The position numbers and the translations under genes are program-made. Under the pieces are notes generated by a model. That model worked only from the letters and a program-made list of their open reading frames with translations, did no database searches and was not told the origin of the DNA. From positions 1-34,188 of the forward strand of contig NZ_FUWU01000036.1 of NCBI RefSeq assembly GCF_900167415.1: a DNA stretch of 34,188 nt. The letters run 5' to 3'. Within the stretch, counting starts at the first letter, position 1; the number at the start of each line of letters is the position of its first letter. Shown here one piece after another: positions 6,755 to 24,554 of this stretch. This DNA is from Fibrobacter intestinalis (GTDB lineage: Bacteria; Fibrobacterota; Fibrobacteria; Fibrobacterales; Fibrobacteraceae).

Positions 6755-7944
6755 AATCTGTCCTTGATGATTTTTTGATACAGGGCGAATTGCCTTTCAA
6801 AGCAGCTTTGCCAGCTGAATTTTTTGGCGTAGTCCGTCGCCTTGCTTTTCAAATTGGCGATTCCCATCTGGGAAATTTTTAGGATGGCGTTTGCCAAAGC
6901 CTGCGGCGTTCGCTCTTCGAGAATGACGCCTGCTCCGGAATTTTTCAAATGTTCCGCAGCGGCTCCGGTGGATGCGGCCACGAGCGCATTGCCGCAAGCC
7001 ATGCTTTCCAAAATGGAAAGTCCAAAAGTTTCCCATCCGGAAAGGGCGAGTCCCAAATCCACGCTGGCATAGTGGCGCGCCATTTCGGCGGCGTCTTGGA
7101 TGAATCCTTCGTAACGAATATGCTTGTAAGTTTCGGCTGCTTTTTGAACTCTCGGCAAATCCGGTCCTGTGCCGGCAAAAAGTACGGCGGGTTCATGTCC
7201 CAGTTTTTCGCATAAAATCGGATAGGCGTCCAAAAACAGGCGCAGTCCTTTTTCGTCGCAAAAACGGTGCGGAAAAAAAATCGTCAGACGTTCAGGGTTG
7301 CCGTCCTTGATTTCATTCACCAGTTTTTCGTCTGCGGCTTCGGGGCGGAAAGTCTGCAAATCCACGCCGAGGGGAATCCATTCGAGCCGGTTTTCGGCAA
7401 AGCCGTGGCGTTGCATGCGTTCCATGACTTCGTGGCAGCTCGCTTCCAAAACGGCGTAATCTTTGAAACTGGAGCGGGCGTAAGCAAAGGCGGCGTTTTC
7501 GCCGAATTGGGCAAGGCGTTTGAATCCCCATTTTTCAAAAAAGCGCCGGACGTAGGTCACGGGAAAATCCGCATGCCAAAATGCCGTGAGAACAGGTCGC
7601 TTCGCCATGTTCTTGCAGGCTTTGGAAACCGCCTTGGGAAGAATATACGGCGATCCGACTTCCACGATGTCGGGCTGGTATTTTTTGAGGGCGACTTGGA
7701 TGTCGGCGTTTTTCCACAGAAATCGGTACTCCCAGTTTCCGGGAAAACGAAATGCCTTCGTGTGTTCAATAATCAGCGAATCGGAAACTTTTTCGGTGAA
7801 AGTCCTTCCATCGTTTTGCACAAAGACGAGCAGCGCATCGGTCTTTTCCTTGTAAAACTTCATACGCTCCAGATGATAGCGGCGGACGCCGCCGCCAGAG
7901 GGACTCCAGAAATTATTGTAATCGACGATGACCAGGCGGCTCAT
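6751..7944 (-). CDS. GT4-like glycosyltransferase
   Basis: The 397-residue protein has the GT-B two-domain layout of family 4 retaining glycosyltransferases. The N-terminal acceptor domain includes the glycine-rich SPSGGGVRRYHLERM near residues 14-28. The C-terminal donor-binding domain contains PHRFCDEKGL (Arg227, Lys232), AGTGPDLP at about 257-264 and the E-x7-E motif ETFGLSILE with Glu305 and Glu313. It probably transfers a sugar from a nucleotide sugar to a membrane or surface acceptor. It lacks transmembrane segments. Its ATG shares a base with the stop of the upstream primase-like gene (TAATG) and its stop overlaps the Dabb start, so it is tightly coupled to both. Donor and acceptor cannot be told from the sequence. 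Confidence 0.93.
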   Translation of the reverse strand: MSRLVIVDYNNFWSPSGGGVRRYHLERMKFYKEKTDALLVFVQNDGRTFTEKVSDSLIIEHTKAFRFPGNWEYRFLWKNADIQVALKKYQPDIVEVGSPYILPKAVSKACKNMAKRPVLTAFWHADFPVTYVRRFFEKWGFKRLAQFGENAAFAYARSSFKDYAVLEASCHEVMERMQRHGFAENRLEWIPLGVDLQTFRPEAADEKLVNEIKDGNPERLTIFFPHRFCDEKGLRLFLDAYPILCEKLGHEPAVLFAGTGPDLPRVQKAAETYKHIRYEGFIQDAAEMARHYASVDLGLALSGWETFGLSILESMACGNALVAASTGAAAEHLKNSGAGVILEERTPQALANAILKISQMGIANLKSKATDYAKKFSWQSCFERQFALYQKIIKDRL

Positions 7945-9836
7945 TATTTCTCTTTCATGCGGTAGGATTTGTCCGAGAAGAGCAGGTTCGCTTCATATAG
8001 CAGGGAACCGGAATTTTTGAGATTTACGGTAAGCCAAAGGGCGCCGTCTTCTTTGCGCTCTAGCCAGAATGTCGCATCGGCATCGCGAAGGAAGGGTCGC
8101 GGACCTAAAATGTGATCGCCGTCTTTGATGACGGAGCCGCTGACAAAAACGGGAATGTCAAGAGTCTTGTAAAAGTCGAGGATGGCCGAAGAACGCCGTT
8201 CGTTCAAATCGGGAATGTCGCTCCGGTCCGAAATGCGCAGGTGGTCTATCCCATCTACAATCAAAATGAGATTCGGGTGCTCGGCGATTTCAGCTTGCAG
8301 TTCTTTCAAGAAGGATTCGTATTGGAATGTCTCCCTGTCTTCCCAGATTTCCAGACGGTCGGTTTTTACATAGTTGATAAGTTCTTGCGTGGCAACGTGA
8401 ATTTGCTTGTTGATTTCGTCGTCTTTGCTGAGTTTATGCACGTCTGCTTCCGAAACGCCGGCGAGCATAGCGATAAAGCGATTCAATGCTGCACGGCGAG
8501 GGCTGTCGAGAGCCACGTAAATCACTTTTGCGTCGGGATTTCCTTCGATGAGGTCCAATGTGAACGAAGAGAGCGCATGGCTTTTGAATCCGTAGGGGTC
8601 GGATGTCAGAAAATAGTAGCCGGGCTGGATGCCGTCGAGCGCATGGGTCAAAGCGGGGAAGTTTTGCAGTCGATGGCCGACGTCCGAATCCGCATTGCGG
8701 CTGATTGCCGAATTGAAATTTTCTTTGATGTCTTGCAACAGGACAGATTTCCGGTGCGTTTGCATGGTGTCTTCCGCTGTTTCGCGGATTCTGTCCATAA
8801 AGGCTTCGGCTCCATCGGAACGGATAAGCGATTCGGCGGTTTCCCCTGCCGGAAGGACGATGGATTTGAATCGGATGCCTTCGGATTCGGCGAGTCCCAG
8901 GCATTTGCGGATGTGCTGTTCCTGGCTTCTTCGGTTGGCTTCTTTGCGGAGAACCAGCGATATGCTTTCGGCTCCGCAGGATTTCAGCTTGTAGAGATGG
9001 CTGCGGTTGAACGGCTGGTACATCGTTGAAACCATACCGGGAATTCCGGCCAGGTCGGCGGTCAAAACATCAAAAAGTCCTTCGACGATGATTGGCGATT
9101 CCATATCTTGCTGGATGTTGAACGGAATGTCCAACGGCCCGGACGCATAGGAAATGTAAACGTCTTCGTTGCAATTTGGCGAGCAGTTGTCCAAAAGCCG
9201 CCCATAAACGGAATGGATGACGCCTTTGGAATTGCGGGCGGGAATCGTGAGGCGCGGTTCGTGGGAGATGTCCAAGTTGTCTAGGTAAAAACTGATTTCA
9301 TGGCGCTTGAGTCCGCAGAGGAGTCCGTAGCTGAAGAACGGTTCCGGATCGCCGCTGTAATAACCGATGCCATAAAGTTTGGACTGATCCAAAGTCCAGT
9401 TTCTTTCTTTTAAAAATTCGGCGGTGGTTTCGCTCTTGGTCGCGGCCCAATAGCAGTAACGTACAAAGCTTTCCAGGACGCGGACTTTGGCTCCTCCGAT
9501 TTCTTGAATATGCGCGGCTTCGTCCTCTTCTTGGATTTTTAATTCATTTTCGGAGGCTCCCCAAAAGTCGAGCGCTTCTTTGCGGGCGGCATTTTCGTCA
9601 AGTCCGTTGAAGCGGCTACGCATCAGAAATTCAACCAGATCGCCATCGGCCCCGCAATGGACGCAGTGATAACGCCAGTAGCCCAGGGAATCGTAGAAAA
9701 AGAGGGTCGATTCCTCGGGAGCGTGAAAAGGGCATTGGGATGCCAGATTGCGCCCCCAACGGGTCAGGGGAACTCCCAGGCGTCGCGGGTGGGTTTTTAC
9801 ACGGGAAAGTCCGATGTTGTCTTCTTCGATGAGCAT
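7944..9836 (-). CDS. Primase-helicase-like protein with degenerate TOPRIM
   Basis: The 630-residue protein has the layout of DnaG/T7 gp4/Twinkle-type primase-helicases. A zinc ribbon (Cys35, His38, Cys58, Cys61) comes first, then a TOPRIM-like region (IIVEG, Glu252), then a RecA/DnaB-like domain with Walker B-like LILIVDGIDHL (Asp528) and LRDADATFWLERK near the end, matching the DnaB DADxxxxLxR motif. Two active sites look altered. The TOPRIM DGDxAGRRA motif aligns with LRKEANRRS (residues 296-304), losing both metal-binding Asp. The Walker A reads SDPYGFKS, with Phe replacing the Gly before Lys418. The start at 9836 is chosen for GAGGTG upstream; the frame is open to 10076. It heads an operon with GT4, Dabb, HAD and GH8 genes and is divergent from ruvC. 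No phage genes are nearby. Confidence 0.85.
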   Translation of the reverse strand: MLIEEDNIGLSRVKTHPRRLGVPLTRWGRNLASQCPFHAPEESTLFFYDSLGYWRYHCVHCGADGDLVEFLMRSRFNGLDENAARKEALDFWGASENELKIQEEDEAAHIQEIGGAKVRVLESFVRYCYWAATKSETTAEFLKERNWTLDQSKLYGIGYYSGDPEPFFSYGLLCGLKRHEISFYLDNLDISHEPRLTIPARNSKGVIHSVYGRLLDNCSPNCNEDVYISYASGPLDIPFNIQQDMESPIIVEGLFDVLTADLAGIPGMVSTMYQPFNRSHLYKLKSCGAESISLVLRKEANRRSQEQHIRKCLGLAESEGIRFKSIVLPAGETAESLIRSDGAEAFMDRIRETAEDTMQTHRKSVLLQDIKENFNSAISRNADSDVGHRLQNFPALTHALDGIQPGYYFLTSDPYGFKSHALSSFTLDLIEGNPDAKVIYVALDSPRRAALNRFIAMLAGVSEADVHKLSKDDEINKQIHVATQELINYVKTDRLEIWEDRETFQYESFLKELQAEIAEHPNLILIVDGIDHLRISDRSDIPDLNERRSSAILDFYKTLDIPVFVSGSVIKDGDHILGPRPFLRDADATFWLERKEDGALWLTVNLKNSGSLLYEANLLFSDKSYRMKEK

Positions 9837-9967
9837 AAGCACCTCGATTCCCAACATAGAAATTTTACAGGTAGCTTGTTGGAAAGAAGGGAAAGAGAAC
9901 TTAAAAATCGGCCTGTTCGCAGAAGCTCGCCGGCTTTTTCCCTTTTCAAAAGTTACATTTTTCCCGT

Positions 9968-10534
9968 ATGGTTTTTCTCGGTGTGGATCCCGGTTCCTAC
10001 ACTTCCGGGTATGCGTTTCTCGATAAGGGCGCGGACGATTCGATTCGTGTGCTGGAATACGGAGCGATTTCCGCAAAATCCCGGGATTCTTTTGCTGACA
10101 GGCTGGTGAAAATCGTCGGCGATTTGGAAAAACGGGTGAAGGAGTACAACCCGTCGGTCTTGATCATGGAAAGCGCCTTTTTTGCGAAGAACGTTCACAG
10201 CGCGATGATTCTCGGCCATGTCCGAGGGGCGATTCTGGTCATGTGTCGTCGTCTGGGCATGGAATTTTTTGAATACAGCCCGCGATCCGTCAAGTTGGCG
10301 GTGACGGGAGACGGTGCGTCGTCCAAAGAAAAAGTGGCGGCTATGGTGACGTCTCGATTGGGCATTTGCCAAGGGAAAATCAAGCTGGATGCGACCGATG
10401 CGCTTGCCGTCGCCAGCGCCCATCTCTTTTTGCAAAAGGGAACGGTGCTGCATTCTCCCCGCAAATCGACGTCGCAAAAAAGCAAGCAGCTGCGGGAATT
10501 GATTGTGAAAATGGGAGGCAAGTTACCCGAATGA
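9968..10534 (+). CDS. ruvC: Holliday junction resolvase RuvC
   Basis: RuvC is the endonuclease that cuts four-way junctions after RuvAB branch migration. The 188-residue protein has the RNase H-like fold signature and all four metal ligands in place: Asp7 in GVDPGS, Glu68 in MESAFF, and Asp141 and Asp144 in DATDALAVA. Length is slightly above the usual 160-180 because of a basic C-terminal tail rich in Lys and Ser. No clear Shine-Dalgarno precedes the ATG. The stop overlaps the start of the M15 peptidase gene (ATGA). ruvA and ruvB are not in the window. Confidence 0.97.
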   Translation: MVFLGVDPGSYTSGYAFLDKGADDSIRVLEYGAISAKSRDSFADRLVKIVGDLEKRVKEYNPSVLIMESAFFAKNVHSAMILGHVRGAILVMCRRLGMEFFEYSPRSVKLAVTGDGASSKEKVAAMVTSRLGICQGKIKLDATDALAVASAHLFLQKGTVLHSPRKSTSQKSKQLRELIVKMGGKLPE

Positions 10535-21545: not shown

Positions 21546-22802
21546 TCATTTGCGCCGCTTTTGTGTGAAACGGATTGTTTCCGCAGCGTTTGACATGTCG
21601 GTGGCCGGCTTTTCGATGCGCTTGATCACTTTGCCGGGATGCGGCGTTTTGCGACCGAGAAGTCCCGCCCGATCGGGAACGAACAGGAAAAGGGTCTGGA
21701 ATGTATTGCTGCCGGGTTCCAAATCCAGCGGAATGATTTTGCGGAGCATGTAGCCTTCATTGCGAAATTTTTTGATTTCGGTAGTGGCAACGGACAAATT
21801 GGAAGAATTCAATAAAATGCGTTCCGGGCGACAGGCTGCCATTTTGGAAACGAGGGATCCTAGGCTTTTTCCGTTGGGAGGATCCAGGTAGATGGTCCAT
21901 TTGCCTTCCTTTCCTTTGCCCGCGAAGAATTTTTCAAAGAAATCTTTTTCGACGGTGGAACGGATCATGCGAACGTGGGGCACTTGGCGGGGAATGTTCC
22001 GTTGATCGACCGCATAGGATGCCGAAAAATAGGGAGAGAGCGCTTCGGCGATATAGGCGGGGCCCGCATGGCATTCTAAAAATTTGTCTTCTTTTGAGGG
22101 GTGGATGGCTTCGCGAATCCGCTTGGGCAGCGCCAGCCATGGTTCTTTGGCTCGGGGAGTCCAATCGGCGATGTGGAACATTTGTCCTGTTCCGGCAATG
22201 GGCAAAAATTCGTTTCCGAAACCTTTGTGCAATTCGATTTGCGAATCCGGCGATGGGTGTGCGGGATCAAACGCTTGAACGGGGCGAATCTGGATCTGGT
22301 GGCAGCAGAGGATGTCGCTCGAATGCTCGTGCTTCAGGTAATTCATGAAGGTTTTGAATTCGCGGGTCGCTTCCGCCGAATGCAGGATGGTCTGGACGGC
22401 AAGTCCGTAACGCCCGTCCCCTGTCGCACGAAACCAGATTTGCAGAACGGATTTGCGGAATTTGGAGAGGTGCGGCTTGCGAATCTGCGCATCGATGTCG
22501 AGGACGATTTTCGGGGGCTTGGCTCCTTTGTAAGGGCCTTCGATGGAAAGGACGCGGTTTGTCTTGGAGAGCATTTGGGAGTGTATTCTCCAGTCGCTGG
22601 TCTCCGCTTTAGACGGCTGGGTAAACCAGCTTTGAATCTTTCCGGGAATGCGGTTTTCTTTAACCCAGTTTTCCAGATAGGCTTTTTTCCCCTCCAGATC
22701 CGGGGGAATGGGACCCACGATTTTGGGGGCGGCGTCCTTGGGACCGGGCTTTGGGGAAGTGCGGTTCCATGTTCCGCGGTTTTCCATTTTTTTTCTTTGC
22801 AT
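21546..22802 (-). CDS. RNA m5U methyltransferase-like protein lacking catalytic Cys
   Basis: The 418-residue protein has a SAM-dependent methyltransferase domain of the TrmA/RlmD (RumA) kind. Motif I is LECHAGPAYIAEAL (242-255), an acidic SAM contact lies in AVDQ, and motif IV is YLDPPNGKS (305-313). The next motif, where the family has SCNP with its Cys nucleophile, reads NSSN (332-335), so Ser334 replaces Cys. The C-terminal Glu of the family (HxE) is replaced by NTFQ, and no TRAM domain or 4Fe-4S Cys set is seen. The N-terminal 100 residues are basic and unlike known family members. The gene sits between the AEP-like gene (12 bases) and the LysM gene (37 bases) on one strand. It is either an inactive paralogue or an enzyme with another mechanism. 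Confidence 0.75.
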   Translation of the reverse strand: MQRKKMENRGTWNRTSPKPGPKDAAPKIVGPIPPDLEGKKAYLENWVKENRIPGKIQSWFTQPSKAETSDWRIHSQMLSKTNRVLSIEGPYKGAKPPKIVLDIDAQIRKPHLSKFRKSVLQIWFRATGDGRYGLAVQTILHSAEATREFKTFMNYLKHEHSSDILCCHQIQIRPVQAFDPAHPSPDSQIELHKGFGNEFLPIAGTGQMFHIADWTPRAKEPWLALPKRIREAIHPSKEDKFLECHAGPAYIAEALSPYFSASYAVDQRNIPRQVPHVRMIRSTVEKDFFEKFFAGKGKEGKWTIYLDPPNGKSLGSLVSKMAACRPERILLNSSNLSVATTEIKKFRNEGYMLRKIIPLDLEPGSNTFQTLFLFVPDRAGLLGRKTPHPGKVIKRIEKPATDMSNAAETIRFTQKRRK

Positions 22803-22814
22803 AAATGAAGTCGG

Positions 22815-24554
22815 TTAAATGATGAAACGAGGGTAGTGCCAGCTGCAATCCTGGGCGGGAGACGGGGGGAAGTTCCGGAAATTCCCGCGGATGCAGAACA
22901 TATTCGGGTGGGAGTCGATGGGCGACAGGGAAATGAGGGAATCCGCATGGGCTTCGAGTTGCGGGAATTCTTTCGTATTGACTGCGGCAATTACTGCGGA
23001 GCCTGTCAGGGCGATCAGAGTTTCCGCTAAAAGGAGCAAAGCCTGTTCGGGTGGGATATTGTTACGCACGGCTTTGGGGTTGTGCAAAATGGCCGACAGG
23101 GAATCGATGATGATGACGCCGTAGTCGTGCAGTTCGAGTTTTTTCGCCCCTTTGACTCTTTTGGCGATGCACTGTGCCATTTCCAGCGGGGAAAGCGCTT
23201 GTCCGCGCAGATTCAGGAAGCCGATTTCGGGAATGGATGCGGAAAGTCCGCGGGAAGCGGCGACGGCAAAAAGCCGCCCGAGTACGGTGGAACGCGAATG
23301 GTTGAAGTTTACCAGCAGAACGTCCGTTTTGTGTGTGGAATGGCCGAGCCAGTCGTCGCCGTAGGAGAGCGAAAGGGCTAGATCCAGCAAGGCGAAAGAT
23401 TTCCCGGATTTGGGAGGCGCTAAAAGCAGCATGAATTCGCCGGCCTGCAAAGCATTATCGACGAAGAGCTTTTCTTTTTTGGGAGCGTCGTCGTTGTCGC
23501 TAGCCAGTTCGATAAGGGGTTTGCCATCGAGACAGAATTCGACCCAGGTCTGCCACGCTTCGAAAGTCTGCGCACCTTGATTCAGTCCGATAAGATATTG
23601 CTGTTTTCCGTTTCGGAGAACTCCGGGCAATCGGACCATTTGCGCTGGGTTGGGAATTCGGTTTTCGACATCAAAGCCCTGCTCTTCCAAAGTCTTGAAC
23701 AGGTATTCGACCCGCTCGTCGTATTCGGCCCGGTTCTTGGCATGGATTTTTATCCACGCCTGCACGGAATTGGCTCCCGTATTGACCAGAGCGGCACAGG
23801 GCAAATTGAGTGCCTTGTAGTAGGCGAGCTGTTTGGCTAGGCTTATCTGGGGGTTATCGACCACGGCGTAGCGATAGCGGAAAGACTCGTCTTCTTCCGA
23901 AGAGCTTTTGACTGCATTGATGGAAACGAGAGCCCCGTCCGGTCCGTCAAGGGCTTTCATGGTTTTCTTGATGCCGTTCGATTGCTCCAAAATGCTTGCG
24001 ACCGTGTTCGTTTCTGCTTTGGGCGTGTTGGACATCTTGTATTCGACGGATTCGTCCGGTTTGAACAGGGCGTCCAGCAGCTTGAGAAAATCCATTCGCC
24101 AATCCGGCGTCGGCCACGGGATATTCAGCGCTTCGGGATCAATTCTGTGATTTTGCAACAGTTCCAGCGCTTTGGCATCAAGTCCCATAGCGAGAACCTG
24201 TTCCAGGGAAATGGAACCTGCAATGATGGGTTGAGCGACTCCTGTTGCGGCAATGGCGGGCATCGCCTGCGTAGAGGGCTGTGCAGCTGAAGCCGCCTGT
24301 TGAGGGGCTTGTGGCGCCGGCTCCCGTTCGCGGGAACGCTTTTCCGCAGCGTAAGCCCGTCGGATAATCGCGTCCGATTCTTCTTCCGAAAGTCCTTCTT
24401 CTTTGGCATGGTCTCCCAGCTGGAAGGTGGCTTCCATGTAAGTCATTCCGACTTGTTCCGCTGCTTCCGCCGCTCGGAAAAGTTCTCCTTTCAGATCTTC
24501 GGAACTAAAATTATTCGATAAGAATTGGTTGATTATCTGCCGAGGTGATTCCAT
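22815..24554 (-). CDS. Degenerate AEP primase-like/RecA ATPase (RepA-like)
   Basis: The 579-residue protein has a helical N-terminus with an Ala/Pro/Gln linker (about 75-110), an archaeo-eukaryotic-primase-like region (about 200-320) and a RecA-type ATPase domain like RepA/AAA_25 hexameric helicases. The ATPase is intact: Walker A APPKSGKS (Lys385) and Walker B VIIIDSLSAI (Asp484). In the primase region the surrounding pattern is kept (LAKQLAYYKALNLPCAALVNTG; NPAQMVRLPGVLR), but the ExD site reads DNP (233-235) and the SxH site reads SVQ, with Gln265 in place of His. Priming activity is therefore doubtful. It is the first gene of a leftward series with a methyltransferase-like gene and envelope genes. 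No other plasmid or phage genes are nearby. No clear ribosome binding site precedes the ATG. Confidence 0.8.
   Translation of the reverse strand: MESPRQIINQFLSNNFSSEDLKGELFRAAEAAEQVGMTYMEATFQLGDHAKEEGLSEEESDAIIRRAYAAEKRSREREPAPQAPQQAASAAQPSTQAMPAIAATGVAQPIIAGSISLEQVLAMGLDAKALELLQNHRIDPEALNIPWPTPDWRMDFLKLLDALFKPDESVEYKMSNTPKAETNTVASILEQSNGIKKTMKALDGPDGALVSINAVKSSSEEDESFRYRYAVVDNPQISLAKQLAYYKALNLPCAALVNTGANSVQAWIKIHAKNRAEYDERVEYLFKTLEEQGFDVENRIPNPAQMVRLPGVLRNGKQQYLIGLNQGAQTFEAWQTWVEFCLDGKPLIELASDNDDAPKKEKLFVDNALQAGEFMLLLAPPKSGKSFALLDLALSLSYGDDWLGHSTHKTDVLLVNFNHSRSTVLGRLFAVAASRGLSASIPEIGFLNLRGQALSPLEMAQCIAKRVKGAKKLELHDYGVIIIDSLSAILHNPKAVRNNIPPEQALLLLAETLIALTGSAVIAAVNTKEFPQLEAHADSLISLSPIDSHPNMFCIRGNFRNFPPSPAQDCSWHYPRFII

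Follow-up and report, generated by a model that had tools for sequence, protein, structure and literature searches.

Within a 34,188-nucleotide stretch of Fibrobacter intestinalis DNA, referred to here as the window, a gene on the minus strand raises the question of what a primase of mobile-element type does on a bacterial chromosome with its catalytic letters changed. In bacteria, AEPs of the PrimPol-PV1 supergroup are reported to occur almost only with mobile elements (PMC5862659), and our literature search found no work on a Fibrobacter AEP. The first-pass annotation had proposed a non-catalytic primase fold joined to an intact RecA-type motor.

Domain architecture and phage relatives

The gene is open for 579 codons and present as one copy in the window genome. 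Promoter and terminator scans performed no better than on shuffled sequence. The encoded protein is laid out as follows.

22815..24554, minus strand: whole AEP-RepA gene, with a PriCT-1-like region, a linker, an AEP (RepB'-like) domain and a RecA/RepA-like domain
24327..24554, minus strand: N-terminal helical region, residues 1-76, matching the PriCT_1-like N-terminus of the phage proteins L172 and L253
24183..24326, minus strand: low-complexity linker, residues 77-124, with pLDDT <50 over residues 77-115 and the highest dN/dS
23520..24182, minus strand: AEP primase domain, residues 125-345, placed by the AF2 model, the RepB' structural match and hhalign to phage AEP
22818..23519, minus strand: RecA/RepA-like domain, residues 346-579, placed by RepA and KaiC structural matches and a profile match

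AAA_25 was the sole Pfam family above the cut-off in the 579-residue protein (E 6e-16). The phrog_2597 'DNA primase' profile of the PHROGs library matched residues 153-488 at E 1.7e-62, and the protein belongs to this family by homology over both the AEP and ATPase regions. Because of these two matches, and because the active-site changes are fixed across the clade, the gene and motif readings are not a product of chance. AlphaFold2 gave a pLDDT of 81 and a pTM of 0.54 for the whole protein, and 89 and 0.87 for the AEP domain alone. The structure closest to the AEP model was RSF1010 RepB' (3h25; Z 12.3, rmsd 3.8, 169 residues aligned); S-2L PrimPol (6zp9) scored Z 11.3, Foldseek on the model returned E-values of 4.7e-5 and 1.5e-4, and hhalign to the phage AEP reached E 1.4e-50. 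By fold, the domain is a member of the AEP superfamily; a sequence search of the PDB found no match with the AEP profile and none with the single protein. For the RecA domain, RSF1010 RepA (1g8y; Z 19.7, rmsd 3.0, 203 residues) and KaiC CI (Z 19.5) were tied, and a profile search reached RepA 1g8y by sequence (E 2e-6). The family N-terminus aligned with that of L172 at E 9.7e-12 by hhalign, and the L172 N-terminus itself fell narrowly short of the cut-off for Pfam PriCT_1 (E 3e-4). In the window protein, a RepB'-like AEP primase is joined to a RepA-like RecA ATPase, and the fusion has its homologues among phage primase-helicases.

These phage relatives, about 29-35% identical mostly over residues 148-490, come from Streptococcus Javan phages, Faecalibacterium phage FP_Lugh, Bacillus phages, Paenibacillus phage Hayley and Flavonifractor phage Castelnaud. 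They are AEP primase-helicases whose genes adjoin those for an SSL2-type helicase, SSB, Sak4 and RusA. Full-length relatives with the same N-terminal region are encoded on the viral contigs L172 and L253 (IMG/VR 3300024346_000333 and 3300021379_001127), and against predicted viral proteins the top match was a phage AAA protein (E 2.4e-31, 631 alignment columns). In the tree, all family rows form one clade apart from the phages. The first-pass annotation had named orthologues in mobile elements with intact sites as evidence against its reading. Such genes exist as distant homologues of 25-34% identity (L172, L253 and Streptococcus, Faecalibacterium and Paenibacillus phages), and searching IMG/VR with the family alignment found no close orthologue; the intact-site phage homologues indicate the origin of the gene and do not refute its inactivity.

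Three other loci were recorded during these searches. In L172 (10622-11512), neighbouring proteins with repeated W-Y-L-N-G-x-x-H-R-E-D-G-P motifs are encoded near the active-type primase-helicase. On a 5 kb contig (G107:C64, L107), a Fibrobacteraceae genome with 8% contamination encodes a phrog_2597 primase of full length and active type, which is either a prophage or a contaminant. Two deep-branching family genomes (G015:C49, L028; G011:C24, L029) encode separate proteins of 361-374 residues related to the RecA half only, with the AEP gene also present.

Active-site residues of the two halves

Sites were counted in one alignment of 69 distinct Fibrobacterales orthologues and 83 distinct phage copies; many rows are close relatives and all family rows fall in one clade, so the counts do not represent independent events. 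The positions concerned are listed below.

23850..23858, minus strand: D233-N234-P235 in place of motif I (ExD), without its second metal acid
23760..23768, minus strand: former motif II (SxH), now S263-V264-Q265, from the counts of Gln against His
23664..23666, minus strand: E297, Asp in phages, assigned by sequence pattern as the probable motif III acid
23397..23420, minus strand: Walker A, APPKSGKS, residues 379-386, with G384, K385 and S386 invariant
23301..23303, minus strand: motif 1a catalytic Glu position, N418 in the window protein, from orthologue counts
23100..23117, minus strand: Walker B, VIIIDS, residues 480-485, with D484 in 69/69
22947..22979, minus strand: residues 526-536, where the phage helicase has the motif 3 His, a DNA-binding loop and the GSGVFARD arginine, all missing here, from the alignment

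The letters on which the first-pass annotation relied are all in the translation: DNP at residues 233-235 (VVDNP, 231-235), SVQ at 263-265 (NSVQ, 262-265), the flanking primase signatures LPCAALVNTG and MVRLPGVLR, and both Walker motifs at the residues listed above. Position 235 is Asp in 83/83 phage copies and an acid in 0/69 orthologues, where it is Pro in 66 and P, N, K or R in all 69. The motif I of catalytic AEPs, hhhDhD/E with both acids, is absent from 69/69. Motif II has Gln in every orthologue (69/69) versus His in every phage copy (83/83). Two of the metal ligands are still acidic, Asp233 as the first and Glu297 as the probable third (D or E in 66/73 family rows); the second alone has gone, and it has gone from all orthologues. 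Arg305 in the motif III region, present in 83/83 phage copies, is lost in the family as well. Residue 223 is E or D in 73/73 aligned family rows and N in phages; judged from the alignment, this acid could in principle stand in for the lost metal ligand. Taken with the RepB'-like fold, the loss of the second motif I acid in 69/69 gives the proposal of a non-catalytic primase fold good support. The residue argument behind it held in part. The lost acid is strong evidence, but the exchange of His for Gln is weak evidence by itself because Gln is natural in motif II of PolpTN2-like and RepB'-like AEPs, including families with a characterised active member (PMC5862659).

The ATPase half fared differently from what had been annotated. 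The catalytic set of RepA-family helicases is Lys/Glu/Asp/His/Arg (PMC8965321). The P-loop residues K385 and S386 are present in 69/69 orthologues, like D484, and 64/69, including the window protein, keep R560 on strand 5b, an Arg that probably corresponds to the canonical arginine finger of a RepA-like phage helicase (PMC8965321). Position 418 is E in 62, D in 6 and N in 1 of the 69, the sole N being the window protein. The motif 3 His (position 526) is found in 0/69 orthologues, and between columns 526 and 536 lie 9 residues in 69/69 orthologues versus 23 in 80/83 phage copies. The deletion, shared by 69/69, takes out about 14 residues of the DNA-loop and second-arginine (GSGVFARD) segment. 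The window protein keeps Lys385, Asp484 and Arg560 of the RepA-family set and lacks the DNA-binding loop after motif 3. 'ATPase intact', as first annotated, is therefore incorrect in that form, and a 'RecA-type motor' is not supported: residues that bind nucleotide survive, whereas the sensor His and the DNA-coupling loop are gone from every orthologue. The contrast of a dead primase with an intact ATPase should give way to a picture in which both halves have lost key catalytic elements and kept nucleotide-binding ones. Since the strand-5b Arg is retained, as is the motif 1a Glu of most relatives, relatives with Glu418 and Arg560 may still hydrolyze ATP slowly.

Selection, chromosomal context and linked genes

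Pseudogene decay is ruled out by dN/dS values of 0.02-0.04. The medians were 0.037 for the gene, 0.029 for the AEP domain, 0.020 for the RecA domain and 0.121 for the linker (Nei-Gojobori, 86 pairs with 0.1<dS<1, the pairs not being independent). The former AEP nucleotide pocket (NTGANSVQAW, RLPGVLR, GKQQYLI) is among the longest near-invariant stretches of the family. Within the order, the gene occurs across the Fibrobacteraceae and in family f2; searches of the other class-level genomes did not find it, and no searched genome of genus g6 has it. When 84,980 species genomes were scanned, 71 loci came up, each with Fibrobacter or Fibrobacteraceae/Fibrobacterales/Fibrobacteres in its title.

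The chromosomal setting agrees with the first-pass annotation, which saw a gene that heads an envelope cluster and has no plasmid or phage neighbours. No such genes are adjacent in the window, where the gene and its RlmD-like neighbour are followed by LysM, HK, RR, PQQ/TPR, SBP_bac_5 and CDP-OH_P_transf genes. Across the family, the gene is single-copy and heads the same cluster in fixed order: the RlmD-like gene lies directly downstream in 68/68 family loci extending that way, followed, where sequence allows, by LysM, HK, RR, PQQ/TPR and usually SBP_bac_5. This fixed chromosomal synteny is not that of a plasmid, phage or integrated element. In f2 the AEP-RepA gene is located elsewhere, adjoining an Omp85 protein gene in G037. 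The XPB helicase gene flanking the AEP gene recalls the SSL2 helicase neighbours of the phage homologues, but its adjacency is a coincidence of the genus: XPB is in 8/8 genomes searched, including ones that lack the AEP gene, and in G006 the two genes are on different contigs. Replacement of a helicase loader was also rejected, as DciA is present in 17/18 genomes tested and leaves no missing loader to be replaced.

Two further genes in the window encode proteins of enzyme type with altered sites.

21546..22802, minus strand: RlmD/TrmA-type m5U methyltransferase fold without the catalytic Cys, from sequence comparison
7944..10076, minus strand: DnaG (Zn ribbon plus Toprim) with a DnaB/RadA-like C-terminus and the Toprim DxD replaced, from sequence

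The RlmD-like protein matches TIGR00479 at E 0.01 and shares about 19-30% identity with homologues in relatives. The Cys of the class-level homologues L142, L154, L155 and L157 is replaced in the aligned Fibrobacteraceae orthologues; this Cys is the nucleophile of RlmD/TrmA. The DnaG-DnaB-like protein matches TIGR01391 at E 1.9e-20. Its Toprim DxD is replaced (FDGD to LRKE) in 8/8 aligned orthologues, and a canonical DnaG is encoded elsewhere in the same genome. An IMG/VR scan found no such protein, and the phage matches listed were 22-27% identical. The longest call for this reading frame (7944-10076) overlaps a divergent RuvC ORF (9968-10534); the true start probably lies downstream of the called one, since most orthologue alignments begin around residue 23-33 of the 7944-9935 translation.

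The DnaG-DnaB-like gene is 13 kb from the AEP-RepA gene in the window and usually 13-22 kb away on one contig in genomes compared by eye. It is present in 97/111 Fibrobacteraceae genomes and missing, together with the AEP gene, from the g6 genomes, G013 and G022. Our tally gave 94 genomes with both genes, 14 with neither and 3 discordant, all incomplete; in one of these (G014), an AEP fragment lies at a contig edge. The co-distribution suggests functional coupling and could stem from one or a few loss events.

Possible function and comparison with known systems

We lean, with modest confidence, towards a domesticated phage primase-helicase of the RepB'-RepA type that would now act as a non-catalytic scaffold or switch binding nucleotide or nucleic acid. 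An ancestor of the Fibrobacterales would have taken over the phage-derived gene as a chromosomal one, and both the primase and the helicase activities would have been stripped from it while the P-loop and Walker B were retained. The AEP pocket may still bind nucleotide or single-stranded nucleic acid without metal chemistry. The RecA domain might hold ATP or ADP as a structural or regulatory ligand, possibly as an oligomer and without DNA translocation, in a KaiC-like manner. The protein could then serve DNA or RNA housekeeping as a nucleotide-gated scaffold or switch, with the pseudo-methyltransferase neighbour and the linked pseudo-DnaG protein as possible partners. We infer these steps from the elements lost, the elements kept and the strength of selection; for ligand binding by the two pockets, conservation is the basis. 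That genus g6 lives without the gene counts against this explanation.

The first-pass proposal, an active RecA-type motor carrying a dead primase domain as a DNA-binding adapter, appears unlikely to us. The invariant Walker motifs, the strand-5b Arg in 64/69, the motif 1a Glu in 62/69 and a RecA domain that evolves the slowest speak for a motor, against which stand the absent motif 3 His and deleted DNA-loop segment in 69/69 and the Asn at the catalytic Glu of the window protein; the protein may nonetheless be a DNA-binding adapter. An enzyme still active as primase or polymerase through a rearranged metal site is very improbable. It could draw on the acids at 233 and 297, the new conserved acid at 223 and the tolerance of active RepB'/PolpTN2 families for Gln in motif II, but 69/69 orthologues lack the second motif I acid, PolpTN2 loses its activity when both motif I acids are changed (PMC5862659), and Arg305 has gone too.

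Descent from a phage replication protein, with dead sites on a kept fold, would also suit a dominant-negative anti-phage decoy: when phages of the same family come in, it would poison their hexamers or replication sites. We give this domesticated decoy a rather small chance: the gene is single-copy family-wide and in fixed synteny with housekeeping genes, unlike patchy defence genes, the phage homologues are only 25-34% identical, and PADLOC gave a single weak match, to mad8 (E 5e-5, covering part of the ATPase). A cytosolic sensor or regulator for the envelope and two-component functions of the cluster (LysM-HK-RR-PQQ) would account for the order AEP, RlmD-like, LysM, HK, RR, PQQ, SBP5 kept in nearly all long family loci. 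Yet an order-level relative (G038 C60) clusters the RlmD-like, LysM and HK genes with the AEP gene elsewhere, g6 keeps LysM and HK without it, and 173 bp separate HK from LysM in the window, making this role improbable.

On the domesticated scaffold or switch reading, an AEP of mobile-element type has become a family-wide chromosomal gene by losing catalysis, with its former substrate pocket now among the most conserved parts of the protein. This offers a clean natural experiment in how a replication enzyme becomes a binding protein, and active-type phage relatives are there to compare it with. That the RlmD-like neighbour and the linked DnaG-type protein were inactivated in parallel hints at a Fibrobacteraceae module not described before. 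It is a speculative suggestion that AEP-RepA, the DnaG-DnaB-like protein and the RlmD-like protein are a linked, co-inherited set of three dead enzymes that together make up a nucleotide-gated regulator, acting on replication or RNA metabolism and without a described counterpart in bacteria; if so, the trio would include two independent primase-helicase types.

Among known systems, the phrog_2597 phage proteins share with the window protein the order of AEP domain and RepA-like RecA ATPase and 30-34% identity over residues 148-490. They differ in keeping ExD, SxH, the motif 3 His and the DNA loop, in a long C-terminal extension and in their location in replication modules beside an SSL2/SNF2 helicase and RusA. 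L172 and L253 share the length class and PriCT_1-like N-terminus of the window protein, L172 matching residues 3-579, but the catalytic residues of both their domains are all intact, and their genes lie on viral contigs next to a P-loop ATPase gene and, in L172, also a helicase gene. RSF1010 RepB' and RepA are the top structural matches of the respective domains; these are separate, active plasmid proteins, whereas the window protein is a fusion with its active sites lost. KaiC and KaiC-like RecA ATPases resemble the RecA domain in having no DNA-translocation loop, a likeness at the level of the fold only.
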